Assembly: GCA_037974665.1 (NCBI GenBank)
Contig: CM075769.1
Span: forward strand, 25,173,139 to 25,237,138
Direction: 5' to 3'
Length of the DNA: 64,000 nt
DNA from: Ehretia macrophylla
Taxonomy: Eukaryota; Streptophyta; Magnoliopsida; Boraginales; Ehretiaceae
Positions 6,754 through 42,100 of the stretch are shown piece by piece. The notes beneath the pieces are model-generated. The model worked only from the letters and a program-made list of their open reading frames with translations. It was not told where the DNA came from and made no database searches. A program made the position numbers and the translations under genes. Within the stretch, counting starts at the first letter, position 1; the number at the start of each line of letters is the position of its first letter.

Positions 6754-7169
6754 ACCCTCATTTCTAACACCTTTCAGGATCAGTGCTATCAGAGGTAGAA
6801 AAGAAGGCTCGAGAGTTTCGTGTTGACTATGCTGGCTTACGTGGATTGTCATTGAATTCAGTTTTGTAATTGTAAAGTTAAGTTTAGAATGTATTGATAG
6901 TTATGAATGGCTTGTAATGTTTTATTAATTTGTAATCTTTACCTTGTTGTCTAGTTGACTTGCATGCTTGTAAGGATGAAATGGATTGAGGTTGAAGATT
7001 ATGGTCTTGTGGTTGTATGTTGTTGTTTGTAGGTTTCTAGATAGTCCTATATATAGGAGAAACTCCATCCGTTTTTTCCTAAATTTCATGCCCGGGGTTT
7101 GGAATTAGGTTGAGAATAGCGTGATAAATAGGAGTCCTGGTCTCGTGAGGGATCGAGACGCTACAGAAG

Positions 7170-8228: not shown

Positions 8229-9615
8229 TGTGAAACCCCACTTTCCTGCATATCTCGTTTTACGTGTTATATCTCGTTTTGCGTGCATATGATCTGTTTA
8301 TGTGCTATAGGACCTAGAAAATTATAATTTTGATGTCAATACTCCTAATACGTGCTAAATGTGCATTCATGAAATTTTCATAAAAAACGGAGTCAGAAAT
8401 TTTATCGTCGATTTTCAATGAATAGTGTTTTTGAAACACGTCCGCTAAAATTTTGAAACTGGTCTTTTTAACCCTTCTAGACCTAGTCCACGGACTTTAA
8501 TAGACCTGTGTTTGATGAAAACGGTTTTAAAATCGGCTTAAGAATTTATTAGGGTTTTTACACCGACTTTTGTGAAAATCGAGTTTTAAGCCGACTCGGG
8601 TAAAATTGTTGGATTGTAAAACTTCTTGTCACCTAAAAATAATCCACTTGAGATATCTTGGGGATTGCATAATTATTTTGAGCTTGGTGAGCAATAAAAT
8701 GAGTTTAAAGTCATTAAAACACAAAAATATTAACTTAAACTACTTTGAATTTGCAATTTTTTTATTTGACCAAGCTTTTAAATACTTCTTGTCATCAACA
8801 CACACTCACACAACACAAAACACACTCCACAAACACACACAAGGCCAAGAGAAAGAAGGAGCAAAAGCCAAAGAGATTTTCAAGCTTTTCAATCCAATTT
8901 TTCAAATAAAAACCTAGTTTTTGTCCGTAGAACTTCGCACCGACTTGGATTCTGCTTGTTGGACACGCATAGCACGCATTCCTAGGCTTATATCGCATCT
9001 AAGGTGAGAGAAAAATTCTAGATCTCAAAATGTCATTTTTATACTTTTGCTCATAAATGAAAATTTAACCGTTAGAATTGAAATCTGATGATAGATTATT
9101 GCTCCTTGCATGCTAGGGATCGTTATATACTAATACTACGAATTTCTGTCGGATGTAGCATAATTTTTATTTTTCGGGTATTTAATTTTGATTAAAATGT
9201 TCAAAGTTGAATTAAATGAGTTGTGTTGATCGAAATCGATTGCCGTCGATTTCTAAATACTTGATAATTACGTGTTAGCGCTGTTGTAATGCCGAATTTT
9301 CGATTACATTGTTCGTGTGAAAATCCAAAAAATCCAGCCATGACATCCTAGGGTTTTAGGGTTATCGGGCATGATTTGGAGGTGTTATGGTGGATTTCCG
9401 AGAGGGCTAATGTAGTAGGTTGTATGGGTGCGTGATAGAAACTGATTTGGCAATGTTTGGATTAATAGATTGTAAGTTATGAATTTTAGAAGTTTAGGTT
9501 GTCATTCTTTAATTTCTTGAACGATGCCTTTAGATGTTTGGGTTGTGTTTGAGTGTTGCATGGTGAGTTGTTGATGAGTAATTTAGAGTTTAATTGTGTA
9601 TATGATGCATGTCTG

Positions 9616-9642
9616 GTTAGATGGCCTACTTTGTCATCTAAC
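9616..9642 (+). other. Hairpin H1, A1 5' LTR
   Basis: GTTAGATG pairs perfectly with CATCTAAC around GCCTACTTTGT. The loop is nearly the one in C, D, U and V, but the stem is quite different, so pairing is kept while sequence changes. Same hairpin at 17086-17112, 30868-30894 and 38353-38379. Confidence 0.75.
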
Positions 9643-9648
9643 TAAGTT

Positions 9649-9790
9649 AATTGATTGATTGATTATTATTGAGTTCGGGAATCGGGCACTTTCGTTGCTG
9701 ATCTCCCAATTTATTGATTGATTATTATTGAATTCGGGAATCGAGCACTTTCGTTGCTGATCTCCCAATTGATTGATTGATTGATGATTG
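9649..9790 (+). repeat. Tandem ~60-bp repeat in the A1 5' LTR
   Basis: Two copies of a unit made of (ATTG)n, ATTATTATTGA, then TTCGGGAATCGGGCACTTTC and GTTGCTGATCTCCCAA. The same pair occurs in the other three A-family LTRs (about 17119-17260, 30902-31050, 38389-38540). The GGGAATC…GATCTCCC ends can pair around ACTTTCGTTG, so each unit may be a further H1-like hairpin. Minus-strand frames rich in NQSIN are artefacts of this repeat. Confidence 0.85.
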
Positions 9791-10136
9791 ATGATGATTA
9801 TGGAGTCTTGGTATGTGTGTGCCACCTCTCGGGCAGCGTTGGGCTGTCGGGTTGATAACGGCATGACTGCCATAGGCTACACCCAGCTCGCATGACGGAG
9901 GTGTCATGGAGGGAGGGGCTAGTGAGGTACCTCGGGTGCGTGAGTAATGGGGAGTTATAAGAAGAACGGTTGAGATCGTGATGGCGTTTGGAGCTACACC
10001 AAATAGAGTATCCTTTATTGATTGGTTATATAGCTATGTGATGATAGTATTATATGTGTTATTGTGTGTTTACTGACTCAAAGGATTATTCCAAGGAGTT
10101 TAGTAGACCTTGTTCGAGATCTATCAGATCCTCACT

Positions 10137-10156
10137 GGGCTTATGTATATAAGCTC
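10137..10156 (+). other. Hairpin H4, A1 5' LTR
   Basis: GGGCTTAT pairs with ATAAGCTC around GTAT, one G-T pair included, preceded by CCTCACT and followed about 25 bases on by TTACAGG. Copies at 17614-17633, 31397-31416 and 38882-38901. It contains a TATATAA string and so could be mistaken for a promoter, but the palindrome and its match to H4 of unrelated LTRs favour an RNA stem. Confidence 0.68.
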
Positions 10157-10687
10157 ACTCTCTATTATTGCATGCTTACAGGTGTTGCAGAGCCGGATTA
10201 CGGGTACGTGCCTCCTGAAGAGGAGAATGTGGAAAATGTGCTTTACGTGGACGAGTCATATGTTCCTGAGTCTTATCCATGATTCTATGTTGTTTAATGT
10301 CATGTATATTAGCTTAATAGACTTTTATATGCTTTATGGTTCTTATTGTAATAAATGTTGAAAGATGATGATCCAAATGATGTTAACTTAGTGGCTTTCT
10401 TTTGTCTATGGTTAAGCTGTAGATGTGTCTCAACTTATTTTTGAAATGTATGATAAGGTTGAGGTATTGTATGTTATGTTGGAACGGAGGCGTATAACGA
10501 GGATGGTTTATTGTATAATATGATTGTGTTGTATGTTGTTGTTTGAATTGAGGAGTTGCTGGATGTATGATGTTTAATGAGGTTGGTTTGGAACCTCGGT
10601 GTCCTATTTACTGTCGTTATACTGCCGAAATTCCGTTGCGTCCTGACTGATCGTAGGAGGGGTCGTGTTGGGGCGTGACAGTTTAAG

Positions 10688-10699
10688 TGGTATCAGAGC
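10688..10699 (+). other. Primer-binding site of A1
   Basis: TGGTATCAGAGC, the exact initiator-Met tRNA complement, seven bases after the 5' LTR end at 10680. Confidence 0.93.
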
Positions 10700-12220: not shown

Positions 12221-12244
12221 TAGGCTCGGGCTTATGTAGTTGAT

Positions 12245-15698: not shown

Positions 15699-18157
15699 TG
15701 TGAAACCCCACTTTCCTGCTTATCTCGTTTTACGTGTTATACATCGTTTTGCGTGCATATGATCTGTTTATGTGCTATAGGACCTAGAAAATTATAATTT
15801 TGATGTCAATACTCCTAATACGTGCTAAATGTGCATTCATGAAATTTTCATCAAAAACGGAGTCAGAAATTTTATCGTCGATTTTCAGTGAATAGTATTT
15901 TCGAAACACGTCCGCTAAAATTTTGAAACTGGTCTTTTTAACCCTTCTAGACCTAGTCCACGGACTTTAATAGACCTGTGTTTGATGAAAACGGTTTTAA
16001 AATCGGCTTAAGAATTTATTAGGGTTTTTACACCGACTTTTGTGAAATTCGAGTTTTAAGCCGACTCGGGTGAAATTGTTGGATTGTAAAACTTCTTGTC
16101 ACCTAAAAATAATCCACTTGAGATATCTTGGGGATTGCATAATTATTTTGAGCTTGGTGAGCAATAAAATGAGTTTAAAGTCATTAAAACACAAAAATAT
16201 TAACTTAAAATACTTTGACTTTGCAATTTTTTTATTTGACCAAGCTTTTAAATACTTCTTGTCATCAACACACACTCACACAACACAAAACACACTCCAC
16301 AAACACACACAAGGCCGAGAGAAAGAAGGAGAAAAAGCCAAAGAGATTTTCAAGCTTTTCAATCCAATTTTTCAAAGAAAAACCTAGTTTTTGTCCGTAG
16401 AACTTCTCACCGACTTGGATTCTGCTTGTTGGGCACGCATAGCACGCATTCCTAGGCTTATATCGCATCTAAGGTGAGAGAAAAATTCTAGATCTCAAAA
16501 TGTCATTTTTATACTTTTGCTCATAAATGAAAATTTAACCTTTAGAATTGAAATCTGATGATAGATTATTGCTCCTTGCATGCTAGGGATCGTTATATAC
16601 TAATACTACGAATTTCTGTCGGATGTAGCATAATTTTTATTTTCCGGGTATTTAATTTTGATTAAAATGTTCAAAGTTGAATTAAATGAGTTGTGTTGAT
16701 CGAAATCGATTGCCGTCGATTTCTAAATACTTGATAATTACGTGTTAGCGCTGTTGTAATGCCGAATTTTCGATTACATTGTTCGTGTGAAAATCCGGAA
16801 AATTCAGCCATGACATCCTAGGGTTTTAGGGTTATCGGGCATGATTTGGAGGTGTTATGGTGGATTTTCGAGAGGGCTAATGTAGTAGGTTGTATGGGTG
16901 AGTGATAGAAACTGAATTGGCAATGTTTGGATTAATAGATTGTAAGTTATGAATTTTAAAAGTTTAGGTTGTCATTCTTTAATTTCTTGAACGATGCCTT
17001 TAGATGTTTGGGTTGTGTTTGAGTGTTGCATGGTGAGTTGTTGATGAGTAATTTAGAGTTTAATTGTGTATATGATGCATGTCCGGTTAGATGGCCTACT
17101 TTGTCATCTAACTAAGTTAATTGATTGATTGATGATTATTGAGTTCGGGAATCGGGCACTTTCGTTGCTGATCTCCCAATTGATTGATTGATTATTATTG
17201 AATTCGGGAATCGGGCACTTTCGTTGCTGATCTCCCAATTGATTGATTGATTGATGATTGATGATTGATGATGATTATGGAGTCTTGGTATGTGTGTGCC
17301 ACCTCTCGGGCAGCGTTGGGCTGTCGGGTTGATAACGGCATGACTGCCATAGGCTACCCCCAGCTCGCATGACGGAGGTGTCATGGAGGGAGGGGCTAGT
17401 GAGGTACCTTGGGTGCGTGAGTAATGGGGAGTTATAAGAAGAACGGTTGAGATCGTGATGGCGTTTGGAGCTACACCAAATAGAGTATCCTTTATTGATT
17501 GGTTATATAGCTATGTGATGATAGTATTATTTGTGTTATTGTGTGTTTACTGAGTCAAAGGATTATTCCAAGGAGTTTAGTAGACCTTGTTCGAGATCTA
17601 TCAGATCCTCACTGGGCTTATGTATATAAGCTCACTTTCTATTAATGCATTCTTACAGGTGTTGCAGAGCCGGATTACGGGTACGTGCCTCCTGAAGAGG
17701 AGAATGTGGAAAATGTGCTTTACGTGGACGAGTCATATGTTCCTGAGTCTTATCCATGATTCTATGTTGTTTAATGTCATGTATATTAGCTTAATAGACT
17801 TTTATATGCTTTATGGTTCTTATTGTAATAAATGTTGAAAGATGATGATCCAAATGATGTTAACTTAGTGGCTTTCTTTTGTCTATGGTTAAGCTGTAGA
17901 TGTGTCTCAACTTATTTTTGAAATGTATGATAAGGTTGAGGTATTGTATGTTATGTTGGAACGGAGGCGTATAACGAGGATGGTTTATTGTATAATATGA
18001 TTGTGTTGTATGTTGTTGTTTGAATTGAGGAGTTGCTGGATGTATGATGTTTAATGAGGTTGGTTTGGAACCTCGGTGTCCTATTTACTGTCGTTATACT
18101 GCCGAAATTCCGTTGCGTCCTGACTGATCGTAGGAGGGGTCGTGTTGGGGCGTGACA
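15699..18157 (+). repeat. 3' LTR of A1
   Basis: 2459 bp, nearly identical to the 5' copy, with one short ATTGATG length difference in the repeat region. It ends GGGGCGTGACA and is followed by the target duplication ATTCA at 18158-18162. Hairpins H1 (17086-17112) and H4 (17614-17633) are both intact. Confidence 0.95.
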
Positions 18158-18162: not shown

Positions 18163-20294
18163 TAAGAAATTCGAATGTTTTAAAAGTTCGATTTAATATA
18201 TTTCCTAAGTCATATGACCCATAAAAGGAATCGGGAACTTGTCATTTCGGACTTTCGAGCTCGGGAACATGCATTTGGAAAATATTTTTCAGGTCATTTG
18301 AATAGTGTTACGTACGTTACAACCTTTAATTTCAACTAGTTAGCAATTGTATGAGCTTTTAACTTAGTTGACTAGGATTTAATGGCTTTTGACCACACCT
18401 AATTACACATACTCTTGCATATAAATCTTATATAATATGTACAAGCTATTACTCAACCAAAACAAAACAAAAAAAAAAGGGTCAAAAAATCAGCCAAAAA
18501 GCACCTACGAGAATAGTAATTTTCTTGCAAAAAATTGCTATAATTGGCCATTTTCTTCCATTTCAAGCTTGAATTCAAGGGTCTAGGGCTTCTATCAACC
18601 ATTCTACAACAAGTTTTGGTGAGAGATTCATGTGTTTGTTGCATTTAAAGCTTGTTTCTATTTTTCTTGAAAATTCCTAGATTTGAATTATCTTACTATT
18701 TTATGGTTATAATTGCTTCATTTACTCCTTAATATGATTATAGAACATTCTTTATTGGTTATTTAGAGATTTTTATGGCTAGAATTGAAAAATACATGTT
18801 GGGGAAGAAGATGAATAGTGACAATGAATAGTAAAATTCGAAAATTTAGAGTTTTTGATATAATTTGTTAATTAGATTGAATTGAGGCTTCCTTTAGGAG
18901 CTTTAGACATTAGTGAAACTAGACAAAGATTTACGTGAGGTTGAATTGCCCGAAAATGAGTTAAAATGCAAAATTTGTTAACTTTAAAAAGGGAATTTTT
19001 CACGTAATGCAATCCGGGCATGTTTGAGCTTTAGATTAGGTATCCTTGGGGCATGGAAGCACTTATGGTGCTTTCGTTGCGTGAAATTGGGGTCCGATTA
19101 GGGTAGTCATAGTTAAAACCCACTCGGGGCCTTTCCGACCTTTTGCCTCCAAAGTGGGTTTTCATGGCTTTAATAAGTGACCTTTGTTATCCTTAGTGAT
19201 GTTGTATAGTGGGTTTATAGAGTCGGAGTTTTGAATTTCGTATGGAAGTAGAATTGCCTAGTTGAAAAAGGGGACTTTAGAACGAAGGTTTGAATTTGTC
19301 ATGTTTGAATAGCTAGATGACCTTAGATGTGTTAGGAAGCCTCTAAAATGTATTTATAACATGGTTTGGTTAATCGAATTAGGTAACTGTAGTTCAAATA
19401 ACTTAAGGAGCTTTTTGGTGTTTTTGTGTAATTATGCTTGGAAATGTGGGTTCATGGCATTTAGGTTTATCAAAATGTAGCTAAATGGGATTGGTAAAGT
19501 TAGATTTGAAGTTTCATATCGTACGTGAAGTTTAGAACCTAATTCGTAAGCAATTGGAAAAGAGTTTTGTTAGAATTTATATGAATTGGTTGAACTTGTT
19601 ACTTAGTTGGTTAATTGGACTACTTAATTGCTATATTTGATTTTTAATTGAGTTATATATGTTGTACTTGGGTGAATAAACATGATAATGATTCATAGGT
19701 TTTGTTATAGTTGAATTATGTTTAAGTGTTAAGCATAGTTGTCTTGATTTAATACTTAGTTTGATATTCCTTTGCAATATAAATGAAGTTGAATTAGTTA
19801 TGAAGTTAACTTGTTAAAGTTGATATAGTTAATGTCCTTGGTAAGATTAAAGAAATGTTTTAGAGTTATTCGTTTGATTACTTAGGCTATGTGGCAATAT
19901 GACATACATGAATAATATGTGGTTATTTGGGATTACGTGCTAATGTGGAGTTAATATAATCAATTGCTAAAGTGTTATACTTAAATGAATATACTAGGGA
20001 TTTGCATATTCGAGCTAAAGGAAAGTTGGAGTAACTAAGCCATTTTTACATCTTGAAGCTTGATAAAGGTGAGGGACCTGCATCCTTACGTGCATTATAG
20101 TTTATTTTTTTTTGCTAAAAGAGTATATTGTTTAGTATAATTGCGTAATTGATATATGCTTATTGTTGCTAAATTGTAATTTGGTGTAAGGACAACCTAC
20201 TTTTTGTCCTTAAATGTATTTCTTGATTATATTGTCATTGTTATCATTCTTGCATTCCATCGTGGTTGCGCAACCTCATTGTCGCGGCGGATGC
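18163..20294 (+). repeat. 3' LTR of B, second piece
   Basis: Continues B's 3' LTR after A1 and matches 4277 to about 6410 of the 5' LTR. It contains H1 at 20188-20212 (AAGGACAA pairing TTGTCCTT around CCTACTTT, a better match to the shared loop than the 5' copy) and H2 at 20264-20275 (GGTTGCGCAACC). It stops at the insertion of C, whose target GATGC is at 20290-20294. Confidence 0.92.
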
Positions 20295-23200
20295 TGTGAC
20301 ACCCGAGAACTTCAACGTACATTTATTTACTGTTGCATCTACTATTTGCGCATTTCTTCTGTGCTTTACTTGTTACTTTAAGTGGCTACTATTCATTCCA
20401 TTTTTCAACTACTTAATTATTTTGAATTAGCATTTTTCTTAAATCATATTAATTGTTTTAGGAATGAGAAAAATATGCTTTTGAGCTAAGAGCGATCGGA
20501 GCACTCGTTTAGAAAATATTTTGTCAATCTAATGAATAATATTACGTAATTTAACTTAGTATTTTAATTAGCTAGCACTCATCTTGCACCTTAGACTCGT
20601 TTTAAAGCTTATTAGACTCATTTTAGAAGACCATATATGCCCCAACTTAAACCCAACTTAATATATATCTAACCAAACACAACATAAGCTCATAACTTAG
20701 CAAAAAAAAAAGTGCAGGAATTACTGTTCAAAATCCGAACAGCCCTTAGCAGCCAAGAGGGAGATCTTTTGCTCATCAAATCCTCATTCCAAGCCAAGCC
20801 AAGCTAGGTGCAAGTGGTTTAGGGTGTTTACTTGCCTCCTAGGAGCTCCTACGCGCAATAGGTGAGGGATTTCATACCTATTTTTACATTTAAAAAATGT
20901 GACAATTTTCTTGAATTTCTTGTTTTGCTCTTAAATGCTAATGCAATGCTCAAATATGCTTATGTATGTTATATATAAGTAGTAGAGACCTAATTTATGC
21001 TATTGTTTCGTAGTTTAATTGGTTAAAATTACTTGTTGAATATTTGGCATGAATAGTGACGGGAATGTTAGGGTTTTGTGAAATTGGACTTTATAGCTTG
21101 AATCAATGATCCTAATAGGTGCTTTAGATGTTAATGAAAGTATTGTAAAGGCCTCATAACATTTAATTGCTCATAACCTAGCAAAAGAATGAAATAGCCG
21201 ACTTTTAGAAATGGGTTTCGGGGTTATCGCGAATCCGGATTGAATTGGCCTCCACATTTAGTAATCCTAGGCTATTTAGGACCTAACTAAGCTTTGCTAG
21301 CTCCCATTTGAGTCCCGGTTGAGGTACGTGTAGTACAAAGTCAAAAGAGGAAATTTGGGGCTTTCGGGCTAAATGCAGGTAATTGCGTGACTTCGATAGT
21401 CCTAAGGGTGCCTAAGGGATTAACTAGAAGTTTAGAATAGGCCGCTTGCTAATCTAGAACCATAACATGAGTTTGGAAGGAAAAAACAGGTTGAGTTACA
21501 AACGGGTTTAAGTGCAAATTCGATTGTCTCACGCTTCTAAGACCTTGTCACGACTCCTTGTGTGTTTAAATAGTTTCAAGATGTTTTGGAGCTTTTGGTA
21601 TAGTTCTATGAGAATTTTGTAAATGCCCTTTGTAATTTGCTTAATTGTTATATGAAATTGCTTCTATTGTTATTGTTATATTTGTTGTTGTTGTTAATTT
21701 GCTATCTTTGGACATGTGTAGGCTAGATGTTTGATAAAAATGCTTAATGAAGTGTGCAACAGTTATATATGCTTGAATAATGTTTAAAACTAGCTAGGAA
21801 TGTAAGGGAACCAAGCAAAATTCACGCGTGCACATATGTGTGTTCAACCGTGGCTGTCCAAATTTTCTTTCAGCAAAACTAAGGCAATTTCGAGCTTAAA
21901 ACTGTACTAATTGGAGAAGGATTAGGGGTTGAATTATATACCGTTAGAAAGCCTTACAAGTCTAATTTCTAATGCTTTTTACGGTGCATTAATTGGAGTT
22001 TTCTAGAATAAGTTATGATCATTTTAATGAGATGTGTCAGAACTGTCCTATTGCGCGAGAATCTGAATTTCATTGTTATTTTGCTAGAAGTGATGATATA
22101 TTTCAACTCTAATTGAATATCTTCGATCAAGACTTTATTGTGTAGTGTTCTTGGATGATTAGTAGCGTAATGGAGCTCTTATAATTATGTAAATTGTGAT
22201 ATAATTGAGATTGAATGAGTAAATAGAAATCATGAGTTAGTATGGAATGCAGCTGCCCTTTCCCTTGCCCTTTTACCCATCTTGCTAAAATGTGAACTCA
22301 TTTATTAAGTCATGTAGAGGTTAACTATAGGTTGAATGTCATACTACCTACATGAAAATAATTGTTTAGTTATAAATAAATGTGTTTTATATTTTTTGTT
22401 TTCCTTGAATCCTATTTTGATTGGAAATGAATACATGTGTTTTGGTGTAGCATCTATTCTTTAAGCTTATGATTTAATTTCAAATTGAAGAGTTAGTTTA
22501 ATTGTGTAGGTGTTTAGTTAGAATGTAAGTTAATTGTGAAGTAGTTATTTATTGGCTTGTTAAATGTTATCTTTAATTTGAGTTTGCTATGAAAGTGGGA
22601 TGAAATTGTTCTTATTTTCAATTGCTATCAAGTTAACGTTGAAGTTATGGATAGATAGGCTCCCTATCCCGTGTCTTACTTGTGAAATAATGAGTTATAA
22701 GTTATATTAAAGTTTGCTGAGCTAGATAATGATATGATTAGGATGGTTTGTTATTAGTTATAAAGTCTTAAATGAAACACTTATTTCTTGAATAGTTAGC
22801 TAACTAAGAACTGGAATGTTGGTTGAGTTAAATATTATGCACCTAACTTTAATATTCTAGTTGAAATACTCCCTTCTTGAGTTGTTAAGTTATCCTTTTA
22901 CTTTTAACCCTACGTCTGCTAGTGAGAAGCTTCTAACTTAGATTACTTATTTTAGGATCATGCTATGTAATATTTCCACTTGCTTAACTCATGAAATTAA
23001 TGAATTGAAATTGTGAGTTTAATTTCCTACAAGTAAATTGCTATTTATATGTGAATTATTGGATTATTAGTGGTTGTTACAAAAAAAAAGGTATTTGATT
23101 GAGCTTGTTATAAAGGTTACTTTGTAAAATATTAATATAGTTAATGCCATCTAGGAGGTTACGAAATATTTTATAGCCACAAGAATGCTTTGGTTGACTA

Positions 23201-24495
23201 TCCAAAATGTTTGGGAGTGAAACCAATTCTTGCATCTTGGAGCTTGGTAAAGGTGAGGGATTTTCATCCTTTTGTGCATTTTGGTTCATCTTCTCTTTAA
23301 TAAATTGTATGACTTAAGATAATTGCTTGAGTTATATTCTTTTTATATCTTAATTGTTTTCGAAGGCAACCTACTTTGTTGACCCTGCTATGTGTTATTG
23401 CCCTATATTTGGTTATACTGTCATTGGATTTCAGTGCATTGCATAGTGGTTGCGCAACCATAGTGTCAGGGGCGGTTGTATTGAATATCGGCTGGGCGGC
23501 GGCGGGCTTGCCAGTGGATATTCGATCTCCGTACCCTATTCCCTCACTCGCCTGGTCCGGAGATTTCCAGGGGGTGTTGGGTCGTAGGATTATCGGGGTA
23601 CATCCGGAGTACACCCACTGGAGTGATTGGGGTTATGCCGGCACATTGATCGTGGTTCGTGGATCGTTGTCAAAGATAAGAGAATCATGGAGTGTTGGGA
23701 TTAAGTGTATCGTATCCTTTGATATGTGTGGTTATTTACTGTTCTAAATGTACTTTACTTGCCTTTCTTGTTAACTGTTATATTTAATGCATTGCACGTC
23801 CTGATTGGCCTTTATCCCTCACTGGGCAACAGTGGTTGCTCATACCTCGCTAACATGTTTCAGGAGACCCTGGGGTTGAACCCCAACTTGTTTTTGTTGA
23901 AGGTGAAAAGCTGGAGGTCCAGGCGGATTAGTTACCTTAGTGGCAGTGTCTAATTGCGTGAAGTGGATTTATGGTTCTTGCTGTTATGTAGAGATCTTGT
24001 TTGCTTTACCTTATTTTCTATTTTGTAGCCTAAGTAGTTATGTACATGTTTGAGTGATTGTAAGCTAAATGCTAGTTGATTGTAGTAGGAGATATGAACT
24101 ATGGCATGTAATAACTTATATTTCTGCTCTTAGCTTCTTTGCATGCTTGGGAGTGAATGACTGGTTGTTTTCAATTTCTAAGAATGATTAAAAGCTATCA
24201 TGGAATGACATGATAAGCAGTTTTGTAAAAAAGTTAAGTTATGAATGCATGCTTGTGTGTATCTAAACTGTTTGTATGTCTTAAGGCTCGGATGGCCTTA
24301 AAGTTGGGATCTTTATTTTGGAAATGGATTTATTGTTGTTCTATATCTTATTGAATGTTTTTAGGTTTTCAGAATGTCCAGAGTACTAGGGAAACTCTGT
24401 CCGTTTTTCCCTAAAATTTGAGACTGGGTTGGAATTGGGTTGAGAATAGCTTGGTTATTAAAGCTTCTGATCTCGTGAGGGATCGGGGCGTTACA
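20295..24495 (+). mobile_element. Element C: solo LTR, 4.2 kb
   Basis: 4201 bp from TGTGACACCCGAGAAC to GGGGCGTTACA, bounded by target duplication GATGC (20290-20294 and 24496-24500). No primer site, purine tract or coding region lies between, so this is one LTR left by LTR-LTR recombination. Internal landmarks: TTAATATATATC TATA-like box near 20660, GGTGAGGGA near 20859 and again near 23253, and the hairpin module at 23365-23841. At 4.2 kb it is long for a plant LTR. Frames at 23376-23747 and 23726-23953 cover the hairpin module and resemble no protein I know. Confidence 0.9.
23365..23841 (+). other. Four-hairpin RNA-like module, solo LTR C
   Basis: H1 at 23365-23383: GG-CAAC pairs GTTG-A-CC around CTACTTT. 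H2 at 23448-23459: perfect palindrome GGTTGCGCAACC. H3 at 23595-23616: GGGGTAC, ATCCGGA, GTACACCC. H4 at 23824-23841: GGGCAAC pairs GTTGCTC around AGTG with one G-T pair. TTTCAGG follows H4 about 20 bases on. Confidence 0.75.
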
Positions 24496-24500
24496 GATGC

Positions 24501-25264
24501 GATGGCCTCGCTGGGCGGCATCAGGCTTGCCAGTGTTGGTTGCCTTAGCTTCGTCTTTTATTCCCTCACTCGCTTGGTCCGGAGATTGCCAAGGGGTGTT
24601 GGGTCGTAGGATCGGGTACATCTGGAGTACCCATTGGTGTAAGGGATGCCGGCATATCGAGATTGAGATTGTGGTTCGTGGATTGGGGATCGAAGATTTA
24701 GAGTGATAAGGGTTATCGATTGTATCCTTTTAAAATGTAGTATTAGAATTGTTATTCACTGCTTATTTATTGTATTAATAGTGTTAAGTTGCTGCATTGC
24801 ACGCCCGGTATGCTGCATCACCTCCCTCACTGAGTATACATGTTATATACTCACCCTCGTTTTTAACACCTTTCAGGATCAGTGCTATCAGAGGTAGAAA
24901 AGAAGGCTCGAGAGTTTCGTGTTGACTATGCTGGCTTACGTGGATTGTCATTGAATTCAGTTTTGTAATTGTAAAGTTAAGTTTAGAATGTATTGATAGT
25001 TATGAATAGCTTGTAATGTTTTATTAATTTGTAATCTTTACCTTGTTGTCTAGTTGACTTGCATGCTTGTAAGGATGAAATGGATTGAGGTTGAAGATTA
25101 TGGTCTTGTGGTTGTATGTTGTTGTTTGTAGGTTTTCAGATAGTCCTATATATAGGGGAAACTCCGTTCGTTTTTTCCTAAATTCCATGCCCGGGGTTTG
25201 GAATTAGGTTGAGAATAGCGTGATAAATAGGATTCTTGGTCTCGTGAGGGATCGGGACGCTACA
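24501..25264 (+). repeat. 3' LTR of B, third piece
   Basis: Resumes with GATGGCCTCGCTGGG exactly where the 5' LTR would continue and ends GGGACGCTACA, followed by the target duplication AAGTC. It holds H3 (24614-24632: GGGTAC, ATCTGGA, GTACC) and H4 (24832-24852: GAGTATA pairing TATACTC). The sum of the three pieces, 3009 bp, agrees with the 5' LTR. Confidence 0.92.
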
Positions 25265-25967: not shown

Positions 25968-28516
25968 TGTGACGACCGAGAACCTCTTCATATTCATTTT
26001 AAATTGTTGAATGTCTTATTTGAGCATTAAATGTGCATTTATTTAATTTTTAGCATAAGGCACTATTCATAAGAAAAATTTACTGTTTAATTTTTCTGAA
26101 ACTGTATTTTTTCTCCTGTCACATATTATGTAGGAGGAATGTGAAAAATATTATTTTGTGTATTTAATGTTGGGAGTATGTATTTAGAAAATAGTTTTCG
26201 TCTTGAATGAATAATGTTACGAAAGAATAGTAACTTTTTGTAGAATTTTTATTTGAGCTTCTAGTGAATTAGTTAGATATTGGACTTTTATTAGACCCTT
26301 AAATATGTTTAATTAGACCCAATTTACTAACTCAAACCCATTATTTCCTTAGTCTATTATTTATATAACATAATAAGAGCCAAAACAAAAAAAAAAGAGG
26401 AGAAAAGCTGGAATTATTGTAGCAAATCCGAAAATGGCATAGGAGGAAAATTTCTTCATCAAACCTTAGAGTTGAGTTCTTGGCTTGCTTAGGGAGGATT
26501 CTAGAGCACCTAGGAGCTTCACCACCTTGCCTACATCTTCATACAAGTGAGGGAGTTGCATTTTTATAATTATCAAAGTTTATGTTCATATATTGAAATT
26601 TTTGATTTGTTGATTATTGCTATAATACTTGTTATAAATGCTTAATATGTGTTTATTAGAGCCTATAGAGTAGACTTTTAAAGCTTGTTAGCAAATTTTA
26701 TGGCAGAATGCATAGATTGATTGAAAGAGATGATGAATAGTGTAGTGAATAGTAAAATTCAAAAATTTAGGATTTGTTTTTTTTTATATAATTTGTTAAT
26801 TAGATTGAATTGAGGCTTCATTTAGGTGCTTTAGAGATTAGTGAAACTAGACAAAGACTCATGTGAGGTTGAATTACCCGAAAATGAGTTAAAATGCAAA
26901 ATTTGTTAACTTTAAAAAGGGGACTTTTCTCGTTGTGCAATCCGGGTGCATTTGGGCTATGGTTTGGGTATCCTTGGGGTAAGGAAGCACTTTTGGTGCT
27001 TTCGTTACGTGAAAATGGGGTTCGGTTAGTATAGTTGTAGTTCAAACCCGCTCGGGGCCTTCCCGAGCTTTAATTTCTAAAATGGATTTTTATGATCTTA
27101 ATAGGTGTCTTTGGGCTTAATTAAGAATATAGTATGATTAGGATGTGGTTTGGAAACTTTGAAACATGCATAGGGAAAGAAATCTTGGTTAAAGAAAGGA
27201 GAAAAGTAGTTTTTAGCCATTCTTGTTGCATTGAGAACTTGTTGTTGAGTTGATTTGTATTGTATTGACTATCCAAAGTATAATGAAGTTAATTGAGTTG
27301 ATTGTGAGGAAAGATTTGGTTGATTGCTACTTTTAATTCTCTAAAGCCAATTTGTGCTATTGTGAACTTATATTGTGCAAATATGTGAAGGCGACCTACT
27401 TTGTCGACCCTCTTATGTGTTATTTGATATATTGAATGCTTGTGACTTGTCTCGGGGTTGCGCAACCTTATCGGACATGGTAGCGTCGAGAAACACAGGC
27501 GGCATCGGGCTTGCCGTGCTCCCTCGACTACCATGGTGCCTATTCCCTTCTCGCTGAGGCATACTCCACTACCCCAGAGGCGTGGTTCACCTGCTGGGCA
27601 TGGACCTACCTCAGGAGAAAGGGTCGTAGGATCGGGATACATCCGGAGTATCCCAACTTATTGGTGTATGGGTTTGCCGGCACTTGCGTAAAGTTTGTGG
27701 CTCGTGGTTCGAGATCGAAGACTTGAAGTGGAACCGTATCCTTTTTAATGTGGTTAATTACTTGACTATTGATCCTGTTGTTTTATGTTATATATGACTT
27801 CTTGTGATTGCATATCATATTGCACGCCCCGGTATGCTGCATCACCTCCCTCACTGAGTAACTTAGGTTACTCATTCCTCATTTTAATATGTTACAGGGG
27901 CAGTTAGAATAACTACCTTGAGTGCCTTGTTGCGGGTTGCCTATCGCGCTGAGGTTGGATGCCTACATGTGAATTGTGTGAAGTTTCTGTTATATGATCT
28001 ACTTTGAAGCTTGGCCTTGTATGTATTGGTTAGGCTTGAAGGAGTTTGTTTTGTAATTTAAAGTTTAAGCTCGTGTATTAGTAGTTGGGATGTAATATTT
28101 AAAGTTAGGCTTTACCGCTTTGAATGCATGCTTGTGTGGACGATGAAAACTAATTAGTTGGTTGGACACAAATTATAAGAAAGCTTGTTTGTTAATATAG
28201 AGTGGTATGATAAGTGGATTAAAAAAATAGAATTTCAATGGGTTTAATTTTGTATGCTTGTGTACCTATTTTATTAAGTCTAAGGCTTGGATGGCCTTGA
28301 GACGAGGCATAGCTTAGTGGTTGAAGTTGAAGTATATGAGAATGTTGGATTATGGTTTTGTAGTTGTATTCTATTATTCGCAGGTTTTTGATCAGTCCTA
28401 TAAACAGGAAAGATTCCGTCCGTTTCTCTCTAAATTTCGTGCTCGGGGTTTGGAATTGGGTTGAGAATAGCATGATAAATAGGAGTCCCGGTCTCATGAG
28501 GGATCGGGGCGTTACA
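25968..28516 (+). mobile_element. Element D: solo LTR
   Basis: 2549 bp from TGTGACGACCGAGAAC to GGGGCGTTACA, with target duplication CATAG (25963-25967 and 28517-28521), inserted in Z's LTR. No interior. It has a TATA-like box near 26355, AAGTGAGGGAG near 26545, a stretch at 26790-26930 strongly like B's LTR at 4966-5110, and the hairpin module at 27390-27873. It ends with the TCCGTCCGTTTC stretch shared with the others. Confidence 0.9.
27390..27873 (+). other. Four-hairpin RNA-like module, solo LTR D
   Basis: H1 at 27390-27409: CGAC pairs GTCG around CTACTTT, where C has CAAC/GTTG, a compensated change. H2 at 27456-27467: GGTTGCGCAACC. H3 at 27634-27654: GGGATAC pairs GTATCCC around ATCCGGA, compensated relative to GGGGTAC/GTACCCC. 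H4 at 27856-27873: GAGTAAC pairs GTTACTC around TTAG. TTACAGG follows. This copy gives the clearest covariation. Confidence 0.76.
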
Positions 28517-29479: not shown

Positions 29480-31944
29480 TGTGAAACCCCACTTTCTTGC
29501 TTATCTCGTTTTACGTGCTATACCTCGTTTTGCGTGCATATGACCTGTTTATGTGCTATAGGACCTAGAAAGTTATAATTTTGATGTCAATACTCCTAAT
29601 ACGTGCTAAATGTGCATTCATGAAATTTTCATCAAAAACGGAGTCATAAATTTTATCGTCGATTTTCAGTGAATAGTATTTTCGAAACACGTCCGCTAAA
29701 ATTTTGAAACTGGTCTTTTTAACCCTTCTAGACCTAGTCCACGGACTTTAATAGACTTGTGTTTGATGAAAACGGTTTTAAAATCGGCTTAAGAATTTAT
29801 TAGGGTTTTTACACCGACTTTTGCGAAAATCGAGTTTTAAGCCGACTCGGGTGAAATTGTTGGATTGTAAAACTTCTTGTCACCTAAAAATAATCCACTT
29901 GAGATATATTGGGGGTTGCATAATTATTTTTAACTTGGTGAGCAATAAAATGCAATTAAAGTCATTAAAAATACAAAAATACCTATTTAAACTAACTTTG
30001 ACTTTGCATTTTTTTATTTGACCAAGCTTTTAATTATATACTATCACCTACACACACTCACACAACACAAAACACACTCCACAAACACACACAAGGCCGA
30101 GAGAAAGAGGGAGAAAAAGAGAAGAGAAAACTCAAGCTTTTCAATCCAATTTTTCAAAGAAAAACCTAGTTTTTGTCCGTGAAACTTCGCACCGACTTGG
30201 ATTATGCTTGTTGGGCACGCATAGCACGCATTCCTAGGCTTATATCGCATCTAAGGTGAGAGAAAAATTCTAGATCTCAAAATGTCATTTTTGTGTTTTT
30301 GCGTATAAATGAAGATTGAACCGTTAGAATTGAAATCTGATGATAGATTATTGCTCCTTGCATGCTAGGGATCATTATATACTAATACTACGAATTTCTG
30401 TCGGATGTAGCATAATTTTTATTTTCCGGGTATTTAATTTTGATTAAAATGTTCAAAGTTGAATTAAATGAGTTGTGTTGATCGAAATCGATTGCCGTCG
30501 ATTTCTAAATACTTGATAATTACGTGTTAGCGCTGTTGTAATGCCAAATTTTCGATTACATTGTTTGTGTGAAAATCCAGAAAATCCAGCCATGACATCT
30601 TAGGGTTTTAGGGTTATCGGGCATGATTTGGAGGTGTTATGGTGGATTTCCGAGAGGGCTAATGTAGTAGGTTGAATGGGTGAGTGATAGGAACTGATTT
30701 GGCAATGTTTGGATTAGTAGATTTTAAGTTATGAATTTTAGAAGTTTAGGTTGTCATTCTTTAATTTCTTGAACGATGCCTTTAGATGGTTGGGTAGTGT
30801 TCGAGTGATGAATGGTGAGTTGTTGATGAGTAATTTAGAGTTTAATTATGTATATGATGCATGTCCGGTTAGATGGCCTACTTTGTCATCTAACTAAGTT
30901 ATTTGATTGATTGATTATTATTGAGTTCGGGAATCGGGCACTTTCGTTGTTGATCTCCCAATTGATTGATTGATTATTATTGAATGCGGGAATCGGGCAC
31001 TTTCGTTGCTGATCTCCCAATTGATTGATTGATTGATGATTGATTGATGATTGATGATTATGGAGTCTTGGTATGTGTGTGCCACCTCTCGGGCAGCGTC
31101 GGGCTGTCGGGTTGATAACGGCATGACTGCCATAGGCTACCCCCAGCTCTCATGACGGAGGTGTCATGGAGGGAGGGGCTACTGAGGTACCTCGGGTGCG
31201 TGAGTAATGGGGAGTTATAAGAAGAACAGTTGAGATCGTGATGGCGTTTGGAGCTACACCAAATAGAGTATCCTTTAATGAATGGTTATATAGTTATGTG
31301 ATGATAGTATTATTTGTGTTATTGTGTGTTTACTGACTCAAAGGATTATTCCAAGGAGTTTAGTAGACCTTGCTCGAGATCTATCGGATCCTCACTGGGC
31401 TTATGTATATAAGCTCACTCTCTATTAATGCATGCTTACAGGTGTTGCAGAGCCGGATTACGGGTATGTGCCTCCTGAAGAGGAGAATGTGGAAAATGTG
31501 CTTTACGTGGACGAGTCATATGTTCCTGAGTCTTATCCATGATTTTATGTTGTTTAAATGTTTGTATATTAGCTTAATAGACTTTATATACCTTATGGTT
31601 CTTAATGTAATAGATATTGAAAAGATGATGATCCAAATGATGTTAACCTTGCGGTTTTCTTTTGTTTATGGTTAAGTTGTAAATGTGTCTCAACTTATTT
31701 TTTTTTGAAATGTATGATAAGGTTGAGGTATTGTATGTTATATTGGAACGGAGGCGTATAACGAGGATGGTTTATTGTATAATATGATTGTGTTGTATGT
31801 TGTTGTTTGAATTAAGGAGTTGCTGGATGTATGATGTTTAATGAGGTTGGTTTGGAACCTCGGTGTCCTATTTACTGTCGTTATACTGCCGAAATTCCGT
31901 TGCGTCCTGACTGATCATAGGAGGGGTCGTGTTGGGGCATGACA
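29480..31944 (+). repeat. 5' LTR of A2
   Basis: 2465 bp, TGTGAAACCCC…GGGGCATGACA. TATA-like TTTTAATTATATAC near 30028, GGTGAGAGAAAAA near 30256, H1 at 30868-30894, the ~60-bp repeat near 30902-31050, H4 at 31397-31416. It differs from the A1 LTR in the TATA region and leader, so A1 and A2 belong to slightly different sublineages. Confidence 0.95.
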
Positions 31945-31951
31945 GTTTAAG

Positions 31952-36964: not shown

Positions 36965-39429
36965 TGTGAAACCCCACTTTCTTGCTTATCTCGTTTTACG
37001 TGCTATACCTCGTTTTGGGTGCATATGACCTGTTTATGTGCTATAGGACCTAGAAAGTTATAATTTTGATGTCAATACTCCTAATACGTGCTAAATGTGC
37101 ATTCATGAAATTTTCATCAAAAACGGAGTCAGAAATTTTATCGTCGATTTTTAGTGAATAGTGTTTTCGAAACACGTCCGCTAAAATTTTGAAACTGGTC
37201 TTTTTAACCCTTCTAGACCTAGTCCACGGACTTTAATAGACCTGTGTTTGATGAAAACGGTTTTAAAATCGGCTTAAGAATTTATTAGGGTTTTTACACC
37301 GACTTTTACGAAAATCGAGTTTTAAGCCGACTCGGGTGAATTTGTTGGATTGTAAAACTTCTTGTCACCTAAAAATAATCCACTTGAGATATCTTGGGGG
37401 TTGCATAATTATTTTTAACTTGGTGAGCAATAAAATGCAATTAAAGTCATTAAAAATACAAAAATACCTATTTAAACTAACTTTGACTTTGCATTTTTTT
37501 ATTTGACCAAGCTTTTAATTATATACTATCACCTACACACACTCACACAACACAAAACACACTCCACAAACACACACAAGGCCGAGAGAAAGAGGGAGAA
37601 AAAGAGAAGAGAAAACTCAAGCTTTTCAATCCAATTTTTCAAAGAAAAACCTAGTTTTTGTCCGTGAAACTTCACACCGACTTGGATTCTGCTTGTTGGG
37701 CACGCATAGCACGCATTCCTAGGCTTATATCGCATCTAAGGTGAGAGAAAAATTCTAGATCTCAAAATGTCATTTTTGTGTTTTTGCGTATAAATGAAGA
37801 TTGAACCGTTAGAATTGAAATCTAATGATAGATTATTACTCCTTGCATGCTAGGGATCATTATATACTAATACTACGAATTTCTGTCGGATGTAGCATAA
37901 TTTTTATTTTCCGGGTATTTAATTTTGATTAAAATGTTCAAAGTTGAATTAAATGAGTTGTGTTGATCGAAATCGATTGCCGTCGATTTCTAAATACTTG
38001 ATAATTACGTGTTAGCGCTGTTGTAATGCCAAATTTTCGATTACATTGTTTGTGTGAAAATCCGAAAAATCCAGCCATGACATCTTAGGGTTTTAGGGTT
38101 ATCGGGCATGATTTGGAGGTGTTATGGTGGATTTCCGAGAGGGCTAATGTAGTAGGTTGAATGGGTGAGTGATAGGAACTGATTTGGCAATGTTTGGATT
38201 AGTAGATTTTAAGTTATGAATTTTAGAAGTTTAGGTTGTCATTCTTTAATTTCTTGAACGATGCCTTTAGATGGTTGGGTAGTATTCGAGTGATGAATGG
38301 TGAGTTGTTGATGAGTAATTTAGAGTTTAATTATGTATATGATGCATGTCCGGTTAGATGGCCTACTTTGTCATCTAACTAAGTTATTTGATTGATTGAT
38401 TATTATTGAGTTCGGGAATCGGGCACTTTCGTTGCTGATCTCCCAATTGATTGATTGATTATTATTGAATGCGGGAATCGGGCACTTTCGTTGCTGATCT
38501 CCCAATTGATTGATTGATTGATGATTGATTGATGATTGATGATTATGGAGTCTTGGTATGTGTGTGCCACCTCTCGGGCAGCGTCGGGCTGTCGGGTTGA
38601 TAACGGCATGACTGCCATAGGCTACCCCCAGCTCGCATGACGAAGGTGTCATGGAGGGAGGGGCTACTGAGGTACCTCGGGTGCGTGAGTAATGGGTAGT
38701 TATAAGAAGAACGGTTGAGATCGTGATGGCGTTTGGAGCTACACCAAATAGAGTATCCTTTAATGAATGGTTATATAGTTATGTGATGATAGTATTATTT
38801 GTGTTATTGTGTGTTTACTGACTCAAAGGATTATTCCAAGGAGTTTAGTAGACCTTGCTCGAGATCTATCGGATCCTCACTGGGCTTATGTATATAAGCT
38901 CACTCTCTATTAATGCATGCTTACAGGTGTTGCAGAGCCGGATTACGGGTATGTGCCTCCTGAAGAGGAGAATGTGGAAAATGTGCTTTACGTGGACGAG
39001 TCATATGTTCCTGAGTCTTATCCATGATTTTATGTTGTTTAAATGTTTGTATATTAGCTTAATAGACTTTATATACCTTATGGTTCTTAATGTAATAGAT
39101 ATTGAAAAGATGATGATCCAAATGATGTTAACCTTGCGGTTTTCTTTTGTTTATGGTTAAGTTGTAAATGTGTCTCAACTTATTTTTTTTTGAAATGTAT
39201 GATAAGGTTGAGGTATTGTATGTTATGTTGGAACGGAGGCGTATAACGAGGATGGTTTATTGTATAATATGATTGTGTTGTATGTTGTTGTTTGAATTAA
39301 GGAGTTGCTGGATGTATGATGTTTAATGAGGTTGGTTTGGAACCTCGGTGTCCTATTTACTGTCGTTATACTGCCGAAATTCCGTTGCGTCCTGACTGAT
39401 CATAGGAGGGGTCGTGTTGGGGCGTGACA
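36965..39429 (+). repeat. 3' LTR of A2
   Basis: 2465 bp, the same length as the 5' copy and over 99% identical by eye. H1 at 38353-38379, ~60-bp repeat near 38389-38540, H4 at 38882-38901. Followed by GTTAG at 39430-39434. Confidence 0.95.
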
Positions 39430-39434: not shown

Positions 39435-42100
39435 TATTTATTAGGTTAGGAGGGGCTTAAAATGATTTTGTGGCACTAAATTGGGGGTTGGTTGAGGTAC
39501 TTGTAGTTCAAACACACTTAAGGCGATTAGAGCTTTTCGGTGTACTATAGTTAAATGTATGATTTCATGGTTCTAAATGGTGTCATAATGTGTATTTGGA
39601 AGTGTAGTATAGTTGGTTTATAAATTGAGAAATTTGTAGTTAGTATGTACCTTGAATTGGGTCTTGAGTTAAAAAGAGAGTGTTTGACCAAGTGTTGACT
39701 TTGCTCAGTTTGAGTGTTGGTATAGTTTTGGTAGGGCATGTAAGCACTTCTTGTGTAGTTGTGGCGTTGTTTGGGCGTTCGGTTAGTATAGCTATAGTTC
39801 AAACGGGCTAGGTGGACTTTCGAGGTTCTGTTAGGAAAGTAAGGTTTCGTAGTATAGAATTGTGCCATATTGTGCCTAAGAATGAGTGGTAAAATTAGTT
39901 TTCATACCTTGTAGCTCATTTGTATGTAGTAGCCTTTAGAAGTTAGATATATGAATAGTATATTGTTGAGTTTAGTAGTTTTAGCTCAAATGAATGTTAT
40001 AGTGCTTACATTAAGTACCATAAATGTTCGAGTATATGGATTGATGGTCTGACTGAGTAGAATATGATTGAAGTTTGTTATGAATGGTTGGAATGCTAAG
40101 GGGTGAAAATGTGTCTTCGTGGTTTAAAGGTTAATTGCTTGGTTTGGTGATGTGGATGGGTGCCATAAGTGTTAGATTGATTAATCTGTTGTTCAGAGGT
40201 GCTAGAATATGGATTGAACTTGTGGAGAGCTGATTGATCATAAAAGGGCCTTTTGATGGTTTTGGACCACGTGTGTGTTTGTGTTATAGAGAGTTTAGTT
40301 GTGGTTCCTACTTGATAGTGGAGTGTGTGGAATGTTTTTATGTATCTCCGTGGGTATATGGTGAAATTTATAGTTATGAAGTGTTTATTATACTATTAAA
40401 GTAGTCTTGCTTGGAAATTGGTTTAATTAGTTGCTAGAAATGTGGAGTACTATATTATGTATTATGTGTTAGTTCTAGGTACATTAAGTGTTATGCTATA
40501 GTTAGTTTGAAATGTTTAAACTCGTAGAAGTCTCATTGTGTTAGTTGTTGTTATTTTCTTGAAATTGACTAGCTAAGTATCTAATTGAGCTTGTATGGTG
40601 TTTAGCCAGCAAGGTGTGTGAATGTGTGTAACTGAGATAAGTTCGTAGTTAATAAATGGTTATGTGGTGTTTAGGAAGATTGTGAGGTAGTTTTGTTACT
40701 TTTTTGTCCTTTAATTTTTATATAGTGGTAATATTTGTATATTTGAGCTAAATACTTGATATAATGGTAGATTCATACTTGAATTGATTAGAATATGGTT
40801 AGAACTCATTGTAGGTATTGAGAATGAAATTTTGGACCAATTCTTGCAGCTTAGAACGTGGTAGAGGTGAGGGAGTCTTCATCCTTTTTGTGCATCTTAG
40901 CTTATTTTATTGCTTTTAGATTATATGATTTAGTTTAATTGATAAAGTTTATATGTACTATTTACTTGCTATCTTGTGGGTTCTCGTGATATCTTGTGTT
41001 TTATTGTGCTTATTTGATATTATCTTGTGAATTCTTGAATTCGTATCGGGTTGCGCAACATTTTTGGACATGGTAGTGTCAATAAACTCTGGGCAGCATC
41101 GGGCTGTCGGTCTCCCTCGACTACCATGGTACCTATTCCCTTTCTCGCTAAGTATACTCCACTACCCCAGAGGCGTGGTTTACCTCGTTGGGGCATATGG
41201 ACCTACCTCGGGAGAAATGGGTCATAGGATCGGGGTACATCCGGAGTACCCCATTTGAAGGAATAAGGGGTTTTCCGGTATTTGCTTGAAGATCATGGCT
41301 CATGGTTCAAGATTGAAGACAAGAAGATGAATCGTATCCTTTTTAAATGTGTTTAAAGTTATTCGATTAACTTGCTATATAGTATTACTTGTGTTATTGT
41401 CCTTGTTGCATTGCCCGAAATGATTTTCAAAAACACTCCTGGTATATTGTATCCCTTCCCTCACTGAGTAACTTTGGTTACTCATTTCTCGTTTCAACAT
41501 GTTACAAGTGTAGTTAGAACAACTACCTTGAGTGTTGTGTTGTCGGTCGCTTATCTACTGATATTGAATGCCATTGAAGATGTGTTATTGTAATATGTCT
41601 TATTTTGAGACCTTTGAGGTCTTGTATGTATTAATGATAAATTTGGTGGGTTGTAATTGAAGTTGTAGTCTTGAATAGTTAGTGGCATAGTTTGTACATA
41701 ATAGTTAATGATAGATTTTACTGCCTTTTGACTGCATGCTTGTATGTTAAAGGAAGTTGAGTGATGGACTTAATATTTAAATAAGTATGGTAATTAGAAT
41801 TAGAGTAATATGATAAGTGGATTTATACGATAAGATTTCAATGGATTTTAACCTTGCATGCTTGTGTGTTATTATATTGGGTTCCAAGGCTCGGATGGTC
41901 TTGAGGAGTTTGTTGTATATGATGATGTTGGAGGATAAGATTGTATCTTGGAGTCGGATTGTAGCTTTGAGGATAAATTTATTGTTTGCAGGTAAACTAA
42001 TTATCCTATAAACAGGGGAGACTCCGTCCGTCGTTCCTTGTTTTCGTGACCTCGGGTATTGGATCGAGGCTCTGGTCTCGAGAGAGATCGGGGTGTTACA
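39435..42100 (+). mobile_element. LTR Y, right piece, to its 3' end
   Basis: Continues Y after A2 and ends GGGGTGTTACA at 42100, the same terminal form as C and D. It holds GGTGAGGGAGTC near 40867 with CATCCTTTTTGTGCAT after it, then H2-H4. Y's two pieces total about 3.5 kb with the start missing, so the LTR is near 4 kb, like C. Whether Y is a solo LTR or the 3' LTR of a longer element cannot be told here. CGAGA (42101-42105) may be its right target duplication. Confidence 0.75.
41048..41483 (+). other. Hairpin module of LTR Y (H2-H4)
   Basis: H2 at 41048-41058 is GGTTGCGCAAC. H3 at 41232-41252 pairs GGGGTAC with GTACCCC around ATCCGGA, all seven pairs perfect. H4 at 41466-41483 pairs GAGTAAC with GTTACTC around TTTG. 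I find no H1 upstream of H2. H4 is followed about 20 bases on by TTACAAG where the others have CAGG. Confidence 0.7.

Follow-up and report, generated by a model that had tools for sequence, protein, structure and literature searches.

Covarying hairpins between splice-like sites in LTRs of a Ty3/gypsy group of Ehretia macrophylla, a candidate mark of unspliced genomic RNA

In Ehretia macrophylla, a large group of Ty3/gypsy elements carries in its long terminal repeats (LTRs) a module of six hairpins, in four of which (H1, Hx, Hy and H4) base-pairing is under selection. The module was analysed in a window of 64,000 nucleotides (C6:25173139-25237138), the whole stretch of DNA under study, from a 1.58-Gb genome of 20 contigs. 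Its stems show compensatory changes, and in most families it sits between a donor-like GTGAGGGA and an acceptor-like TTTCAG|G, with complementarity between the donor and the flank of H4. We favour, at a probability of roughly one half, the reading that the module is a selected six-hairpin RNA domain within an optional leader intron of LTR R-U5, where it would control or mark the unspliced genomic RNA. Its presence in RNA is predicted from the TATA-like sites upstream, and from the sequence we infer roles in splicing, packaging and dimerisation.

In RNA order the module comprises H1, H2, Hx, Hy, H3, a GTATCCTTTTAA box, CCCTCACTG, H4 and TTTCAG|G. A first-pass annotation had described H1 to H4, in this order, in seven LTR copies, with H1 lacking in Y; order and places are borne out in all seven, and the spacings it gave fit the solo LTR C, where the hairpins start near 23362, 23447, 23595 and 23824. 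Hx and Hy, two extra stems in the H2-H3 interval, are first recognised here. The original list of copies was incomplete, as the module is also found in A (LTRs from 8229, 15698, 29480 and 36965), in X (minus strand, near 49100 and 53600) and in the second LTR of B, and two H1-like hairpins occur in W. Stems vary between families while loops stay constant. H1 is a stem capped by a CTACTTT loop, with arms GTTAGATGGC/GTCATCTAAC in A, GAGGGCAAC/GTTGACCCTC in V and GAGAGTAAC/GTTATTCTC in copy L041b. Allowing one mismatch, the window contains 14 occurrences of the loop sequence CCTACTTTGT, of which 12 lie inside module-bearing LTRs. H1 is absent from Y and L042b, and none was seen in X. Within the C family (L012-L039) the H1 variants GAGGGCAAC/GTTGACCCTC, GAGGTCAAC/GTTGATCCTC and GAGGGCAAC/GTTGTCCCTC seem to be subfamily markers.

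The second hairpin, H2, is GGTTGCGCAACC. C, D, U, V2 and L041a share it as a long palindrome, L050 has another long palindrome, and Y and L052 have a shorter one; it is broken in B and L051, and no palindrome beyond chance was found at H2 in A1, B, X48, L041b, L042, L049 or L051. Hx is a long stem with an apical GGGCAGCATCGGGCTTGCC, Hy reads CCCTCACTCGC...GTTGGG and H3 reads GGGGTACATCCGGAGTACACC. H4 adjoins the acceptor and contains a branch-like CTCAC or CTCAT in its 3′ arm. In the H1-Hx interval of an A LTR (9670-9790), a further hairpin, GGGAATCG[GA]GCACTTTCGTTGCTGATCTCCC, is present in two tandem copies.

The window contains large nested LTR retrotransposons, and the bearers of the module include elements with and without coding capacity (Table 1). 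Two ORFs of A2, the copy of A covered by our Pfam scan, encode gag, protease, reverse transcriptase (RT) and RNase H, followed by integrase. No chromodomain was among the Pfam matches of these ORFs at E 0.001, and A is not assigned to the Tekay/Del chromovirus lineage, which has a chromodomain at the pol end. Five proteins related to its Gag, among them ones from Coffea, Diospyros, Henckelia and Salvia, share 26-33% identity. TG...CA ends and 5-bp target duplications are present in A, C, D and U, and primer sites in A, B, V and X. B, whose second LTR is split by the insertion of C, and V, which has a primer site and a purine tract, are non-coding elements; their internal regions are nowhere free of stops for more than 99 and 149 codons, respectively. 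As the first-pass annotation had noted, both keep the module with little coding sequence. The gag-pol-bearing elements carry it as well, however, and its presence in A means that B and V have it in common with possible helpers. The module had also been placed just upstream of the primer site; the two are in fact some 420 bp apart in B and 530 bp apart in A. Both X copies lie in two stretches of about 4.9 kb (44741-49606 and 49338-54177), which are 88% alike and in the same orientation.

Table 1. Elements, module copies and associated sites, in window positions.
Feature	Position	Strand	Remarks
A1, gag-pol-bearing Ty3/gypsy element	8229-18157	+	LTRs ~2.46 kb
A2, gag-pol-bearing Ty3/gypsy element	29480-39429	+	LTRs ~2.46 kb
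A1 primer site TGGTATCAGAGC	10688..10699	+	~530 bp 3′ of H4
C, solo LTR, TGTGACACCC...GGGGCGTTACA ends	20295..24495	+	target duplication GATGC; sits in B second LTR
D, solo LTR	25968-28516	+	target duplication CATAG
U, solo LTR	60040-62529	-	5-bp target duplication
C TATA-like AATATATAT	20660..20668	+	~200 bp 5′ of outer donor; putative, from reading
C outer donor-like AATAG|GTGAGGGA	20862..20869	+	
C inner donor-like GTAAAG|GTGAGGGA	23253..23260	+	
C H1, loop CTACTTT	23361..23388	+	
C H2, palindrome TGGTTGCGCAACCA	23447..23460	+	
C Hx	23468..23538	+	core GAATATC...GGATATTC 23483-23524
C Hy, CCCTCACTCGCCTGG...CCAGGGGGTGTTGGG	23541..23582	+	
C H3, GGGGTACATCCGGAGTACACCC	23595..23616	+	covariation weak
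C TCCCTCAC	23815..23822	+	complement of donor GTGAGGGA
C H4, GGGCAAC...GTTGCTC	23824..23841	+	
C acceptor-like CTAACATGTTTCAG	23850..23863	+	putative exon 2 starts 23864
B first LTR module	6178..6777	+	inner donor 6178, outer donor 4728, acceptor before 6778
B first LTR hairpins	H1 near 6296, H2 6371-6382 (variant), H4 6733-6753	+	
B second LTR, split by C	20069..24860	+	donor 20069, H1 loop 20196, H2 20264, H4 24825-24853
D module	26547..27897	+	donor 26547, H1 near 27385-27413, model match 27440-27662, H4 27856-27873, acceptor before 27898
U module	60627..61957	-	donor 61957, H1 loop near 61132, model match 61070-60881, H4 60665-60648, acceptor near 60627
V2 (V 5′ LTR)	62700..63318	-	inner donor 63318, H1 loop 63225, model match 63168-62985, H4 from 62756
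V1 (V 3′ LTR)	54840..55461	-	inner donor GTAAGGGA 55461, H1 loop 55368, model match 55311-55128, H4 from 54898, acceptor mutated to TTCCGG
Y	40867..41500	+	inner donor 40867, without H1, model match 41033-41260, H4 from 41459, acceptor altered (ACAAG)
A1 first LTR (8229-about 10680) module	8776..10181	+	TATA-like 8776-8784, donor 9004, H1 about 9616-9642, Hx-like 9831, H4 10137-10156, acceptor before 10182
A1 second LTR model match	17240..17412	+	E 0.016; donor 16474, H1 loop 17095
A2 first LTR model match	31033..31187	+	E 0.0095; donor 30256, H1 loop 30877
A2 second LTR model match	38518..38672	+	E 0.0008; donor 37741, H1 loop 38362
X	48764..50060	-	donor 50060, model match 49185-49076, H4 from 48813 (weakly paired), acceptor TTTTAG
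X second copy	53356..53748	-	model match 53748-53476, H4 from 53385
W, A-like LTR cut by Y	42160..42291	-	two H1-like hairpins
Acidic peptide sites	10182-10312; 23864-23931	+	
Acidic peptide sites	60626 downward; 48764 downward	-	
Acidic peptide sites	L041, L050, L051, L052		

Under neutral decay of one ancestral hairpin, the two arms of a copy would pair no better with each other than with arms from other families. In the window, own arms gave lower duplex energies than swapped arms for H1 (-11.5 against -7.0 kcal/mol; permutation p 4/20001), H4 (-10.5 against -6.7; 1/20001), Hx (-26.9 against -21.8; 3/20001), Hy (-24.0 against -19.7; 129/20001, with arms overlapping) and H3 (-10.0 against -8.7; 643/20001). 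With non-overlapping arms of Hy in 10 copies, 0 of 20000 permutations reached the observed value. The proportion of arm-swap pairs at p 0.01 was 9/16 in H1, 7/9 in H4, 5/14 in H3, 21/174 in Hy, 4/159 in Hx and 0/2 in H2. Control pairs outside single hairpins reached p 0.01 in 44 and p 0.002 in 6 of 792 cases, which makes the arm-swap p-values about four- to five-fold optimistic.

Because of this optimism, we ran neutral simulations, with a simple one-rate substitution process, along a FastTree tree of LTR pieces. The observed difference between own and swapped arms was reached by none of 750 neutral replicates for H1 (-3.10, 12 copies) and H4 (-3.70, 15 copies), by none of 600 for Hx (-4.91, 15 copies) and Hy (-3.31, 13 copies), and by 33 of 600 for H3 (-1.08, 12 copies), which is borderline. 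The annotation had proposed a selected RNA structure and named common ancestry without selection on pairing as its rival. For H1, Hx, Hy and H4 this rival is rejected by the simulation; H3 stays at the border and H2 varies too little for a test of pairing.

Counts of paired positions, taken from window coordinates as MAFFT alignments misplaced the loop gaps, agree for H1 and H4. In H1, 67 of 71 cells are paired and both sides have changed in six of nine pairs (2/20000 shuffles of the right arm reach this); when a one-base bulge in four families is not skipped, 61 of 71 cells are paired and 135/20000 shuffles reach the count. In H4, 61 of 63 cells are paired, with both sides changed in four of seven pairs (3/20000). 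A scan of 5396 column pairs that was blind to the hairpins, and in which MAFFT misaligned A at H1, gave 11 pairs at p 0.001 where about five were expected; nine of the 11 fall within H1, Hy and H4. When the eight new copies were taken alone, all stems showed the same direction, strongly only for H4 (50/20000, 6 copies); with five copies each the values were 3002/20000 for H1, 993/20000 for Hx, 968/20000 for Hy and 2029/20000 for H3. RNAalifold gives a less clear picture of the H2-H3 alignment: 11 of 42 pairs have a double change, and the covariation term, at +0.37, is slightly unfavourable. The module as a whole has an uninformative folding energy, ordinary in C (z -0.75) and V1 (z -0.54) and low only in A (z -2.99).

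Matched changes could also arise without selection, since template switching can correct imperfect palindromes. We regard such a mutational origin as highly improbable here: the G-U pairs, the H1 bulge common to several families and the conserved loops are unlike the product of copying one arm, and the order and position of the hairpins are retained across families.

Model matches in the window are confined to LTRs. A covariance model of the H2-H3 interval, trained on B, C, D, U, V1, V2 and Y, gave 15 matches there (E up to 1), every one in an LTR and on its sense strand. These comprised the seven training copies, both halves of the B second LTR, two copies in X (E 7e-5 and 3e-4) and the four A LTRs (E 0.0008, 0.0095, 0.016 and 0.2, the last a piece of 25 positions), so that six of the 15 lie in A and X, families outside the training set. 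Together with the covariation of four stems, this recovery of copies on which the model was not trained supports a selected RNA structure in LTR sequence 3′ of a TATA-like site. Six of 15 preset 10-kb genome stretches contained matches to the model, eight in all; one lies near U, one near D, and two are apparently the LTR pair of one element. A rough extrapolation from these eight matches in 150 kb suggests that module-bearing LTRs may reach tens of thousands per genome. In 28 loci chosen by similarity to C there were 30 matches (E up to 0.01), one of them partial and on the opposite strand. Rfam gave no match in the window at the gathering score. Viral contigs contained five stretches with the exact H3 core, none with the other marks of the module that were looked for, and no relative was found in viral contigs searched with the RT protein. 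Six loci in contigs of bacterial genomes (L006-L011) encode Ty3/gypsy-like RT at 46-66% identity, probably as foreign DNA in the assemblies.

Splice-like features surround the module. A stretch poor in ATG and T terminates at GTGAG[AG]GA in six families (A, B, C, D, U and X), four of which (A, C, D and U) have a TATA-like site some 200 bp 5′ of this donor-like sequence. The exon-1-like stretches of A (8806-9003), C, D, U, X and B contain 0, 0, 1, 0, 1 and 0 ATGs, against 38, 77, 30, 24, 37 and 49 in the putative introns, and their T content is 20-27% against 33-38%; these limits were drawn visually and miss some acceptors by a few bases. In 15 of the 16 copies examined, H4 is followed some 20-30 nt further on by an acceptor-like AG|G, the exception being Y, whose site is altered. 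The acceptor is altered too in V1, which is outside these 16, and reads CAAG in five of 27 C-family copies. Lying between donor-like and acceptor-like sites, the module looks intronic, and the annotation's placement of it in the 5′ leader of genomic RNA should be amended accordingly: it is probably in an intron and not in a plain leader. A second, inner donor-like site, some 110-130 bp 5′ of H1 or of its place, is present in B, C, V and Y and leaves the 5′ end of the intron ambiguous.

The eight bases of the donor are complementary to TCCCTCAC 5′ of H4. Across the putative intron (0.6-3.0 kb), the CCCTCAC flank of H4 is the best partner of the donor in six of eight window families: in A (three of four LTRs, namely both of A1 and one of the two of A2), C (both donors), D, U, V1, V2 and Y. 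It is not the best partner in B or X. Among eight further copies, it is the best partner in all three for which a donor was found. Shuffled introns reached the observed energy in 1/60 cases for C, 0/60 for D, 0/60 for U, 3/60 for V2 and 5/60 for Y; in A1 (50/60), B (58/60) and X (51/60) the shuffles reach it so often that the pairing means little there. Donor position +9 changes together with its partner, being T-A in C, U and L041a, G-C in D, V, L049 and L051, and G-U in Y; on the tree these changes amount to few events, and donor and flank give an arm-swap p of 0.12. The sequence GTGAGGGA is also present about 20 bp before several LTR ends (7145, 24475 and 25244 on the plus strand; 54195 and 59559 on the minus strand), and is there another possible partner of TCCCTCAC.

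We weighed two other accounts of this arrangement. In the first, the leader would be an ordinary one that is never spliced, with the hairpins serving packaging or dimerisation, and other reasons, such as pairing of GTGAGGGA with the H4 flank, would preserve the GT and AG motifs. The covariation and the presence of the module in coding and non-coding elements alike fit this account. So do the imperfect donors of D and its relatives L049 and L051, which have no G before the GT yet retain GTGAGGGAG and its complement, and the statement, in the accessible text of a 2025 review, that introns are generally absent from plant LTR retrotransposons (PMC12786077). This account leaves aside the shortage of ATG and T that extends up to the donor in six families, and the AG|G following H4 in nearly all copies, and we consider it rather doubtful. 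In the second, a host-like first intron would be regulated, through the amount of splicing or intron-enhanced expression, and the module would have no packaging role. The donor-flank pairing and the position of H4 beside the acceptor, with its branch-like 3′ arm, speak for such control, and structured RNAs at splice sites are known from plant genes, according to the available part of one report (PMC12218528). In C, however, H1, Hx and Hy lie about 200-450 nt from the acceptor and covary as strongly as H4, and their conserved loops suggest a binding partner. We therefore hold splicing control by itself to be unlikely.

Downstream of the acceptor the picture is less simple. Beyond its first 100 nt or so, the putative exon 2 matches the intron in its richness in T and ATG (in A, 16 ATGs within 250 nt), so that a clean leader would not result from splicing alone. 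The many ATGs of the module region might call for a translation element, in which the hairpins would let ribosomes cross or enter the leader of unspliced RNA by shunting or internal entry; shunting in plant pararetroviruses is reportedly the subject of one published study. The module lies several hundred bases from gag, with more ATGs in between, and is retained in non-coding B and V, both of which make this role very improbable. No match to an intron-less junction of A was found in the genome among five candidates scored, a result that is uninformative if splicing never occurs.

Directly 3′ of the acceptor-like site, nine of 16 copies read, in one common frame, as a short acidic peptide (for example GEVEVNPQLLEVEEEEEVHVD in L051 and GVVEADPLEVIEEEEQVEVFP in L041b). 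A purine-rich splicing enhancer and a coding exon are both possible identities of this stretch; the exon-1-like stretch of A has no ATG ahead of the peptide. By eye, ATG-opened stretches before the inner donors of C (23200-23252) and Y (40845-40866) read as similar short peptides, whose frame would join the acidic one; they were not seen in B or V.

Returning to an optional leader intron that holds the selected domain, we can outline how it might work. Transcription would start about 170-200 nt 5′ of the donor, and the leader would be spliced part of the time, removing the module. The donor-flank stem and H4, with the branch-like CTCAC or CTCAT in its 3′ arm, would slow splicing. Unspliced RNA would retain the module and serve as genome, and spliced RNA would not be copied, LTRs derived from it being expected to lose the intron stretch. 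Acting in cis, the module would have the genomic RNA dimerised (through H2) and packaged or exported, and its retention in non-coding relatives would reflect their use, in trans, of the same machinery. We tentatively speculate, as a possibility short of our preferred reading in confidence, that the genome mark is thus kept in an LTR intron, where the hairpins and the donor/H4-flank stem form a switch that sends spliced RNA to protein and unspliced RNA to copying, with non-coding relatives riding along. The module offers a defined sequence for tests of packaging, dimerisation and splicing, and a handle on non-coding elements and their helpers.

Among the matches listed in a literature search, mostly without subscription papers, no title or abstract opening describes the motif or an LTR-leader intron in such elements, and a letter search for the motif sequence returned only papers unrelated by title. 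In leaders of the HIV-1 type a splice donor, a dimerisation hairpin and packaging stems occur together. The present module is similar in having covarying hairpins near a donor-like site, one with a self-complementary core in some copies, and a possible means of telling unspliced from spliced RNA; it differs in lying inside the LTR, 5′ of the primer site and between the donor-like and acceptor-like sites. LARDs are non-coding LTR elements for which a conserved internal RNA structure has been proposed. B and V resemble them in consisting of LTRs and a primer site with little coding sequence, but their structure is in the LTR and not internal. The introns of the plant elements Ogre and EVD are situated in coding regions.

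The review cited above, in its accessible text, names Ogre and EVD as plant LTR elements with functional introns, said to make subgenomic RNAs (PMC12786077); the elements described here would share the possession of introns, putative in our case, and the text available mentions no covarying module for Ogre or EVD. As that review calls plant LTR elements generally intron-less, a leader-intron module would be noteworthy if true. In the available part of a sunflower study, the Tekay clade is missing from the expressed set (PMC7730604). BARE, a Ty1/copia element of barley, has separate RNAs for translation and copying, one form being spliced, and its parasitic partner BARE2 is said to retain dimerisation and packaging signals; the packaged RNA of other LTR elements is described there as little known (PMC3735527, accessible text). 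Separate RNA pools and a parasitic partner in a plant LTR element are what we propose from sequence here, whereas BARE, a member of another superfamily, has its intron at the gag end, outside the LTR. The terms transpos, LTR, retro and gypsy do not occur in the main text of the report on plant-gene splice-site stems, which, in the part available, may control splicing (PMC12218528). Those stems, like ours, are at or near splice sites, but they lie in host genes.
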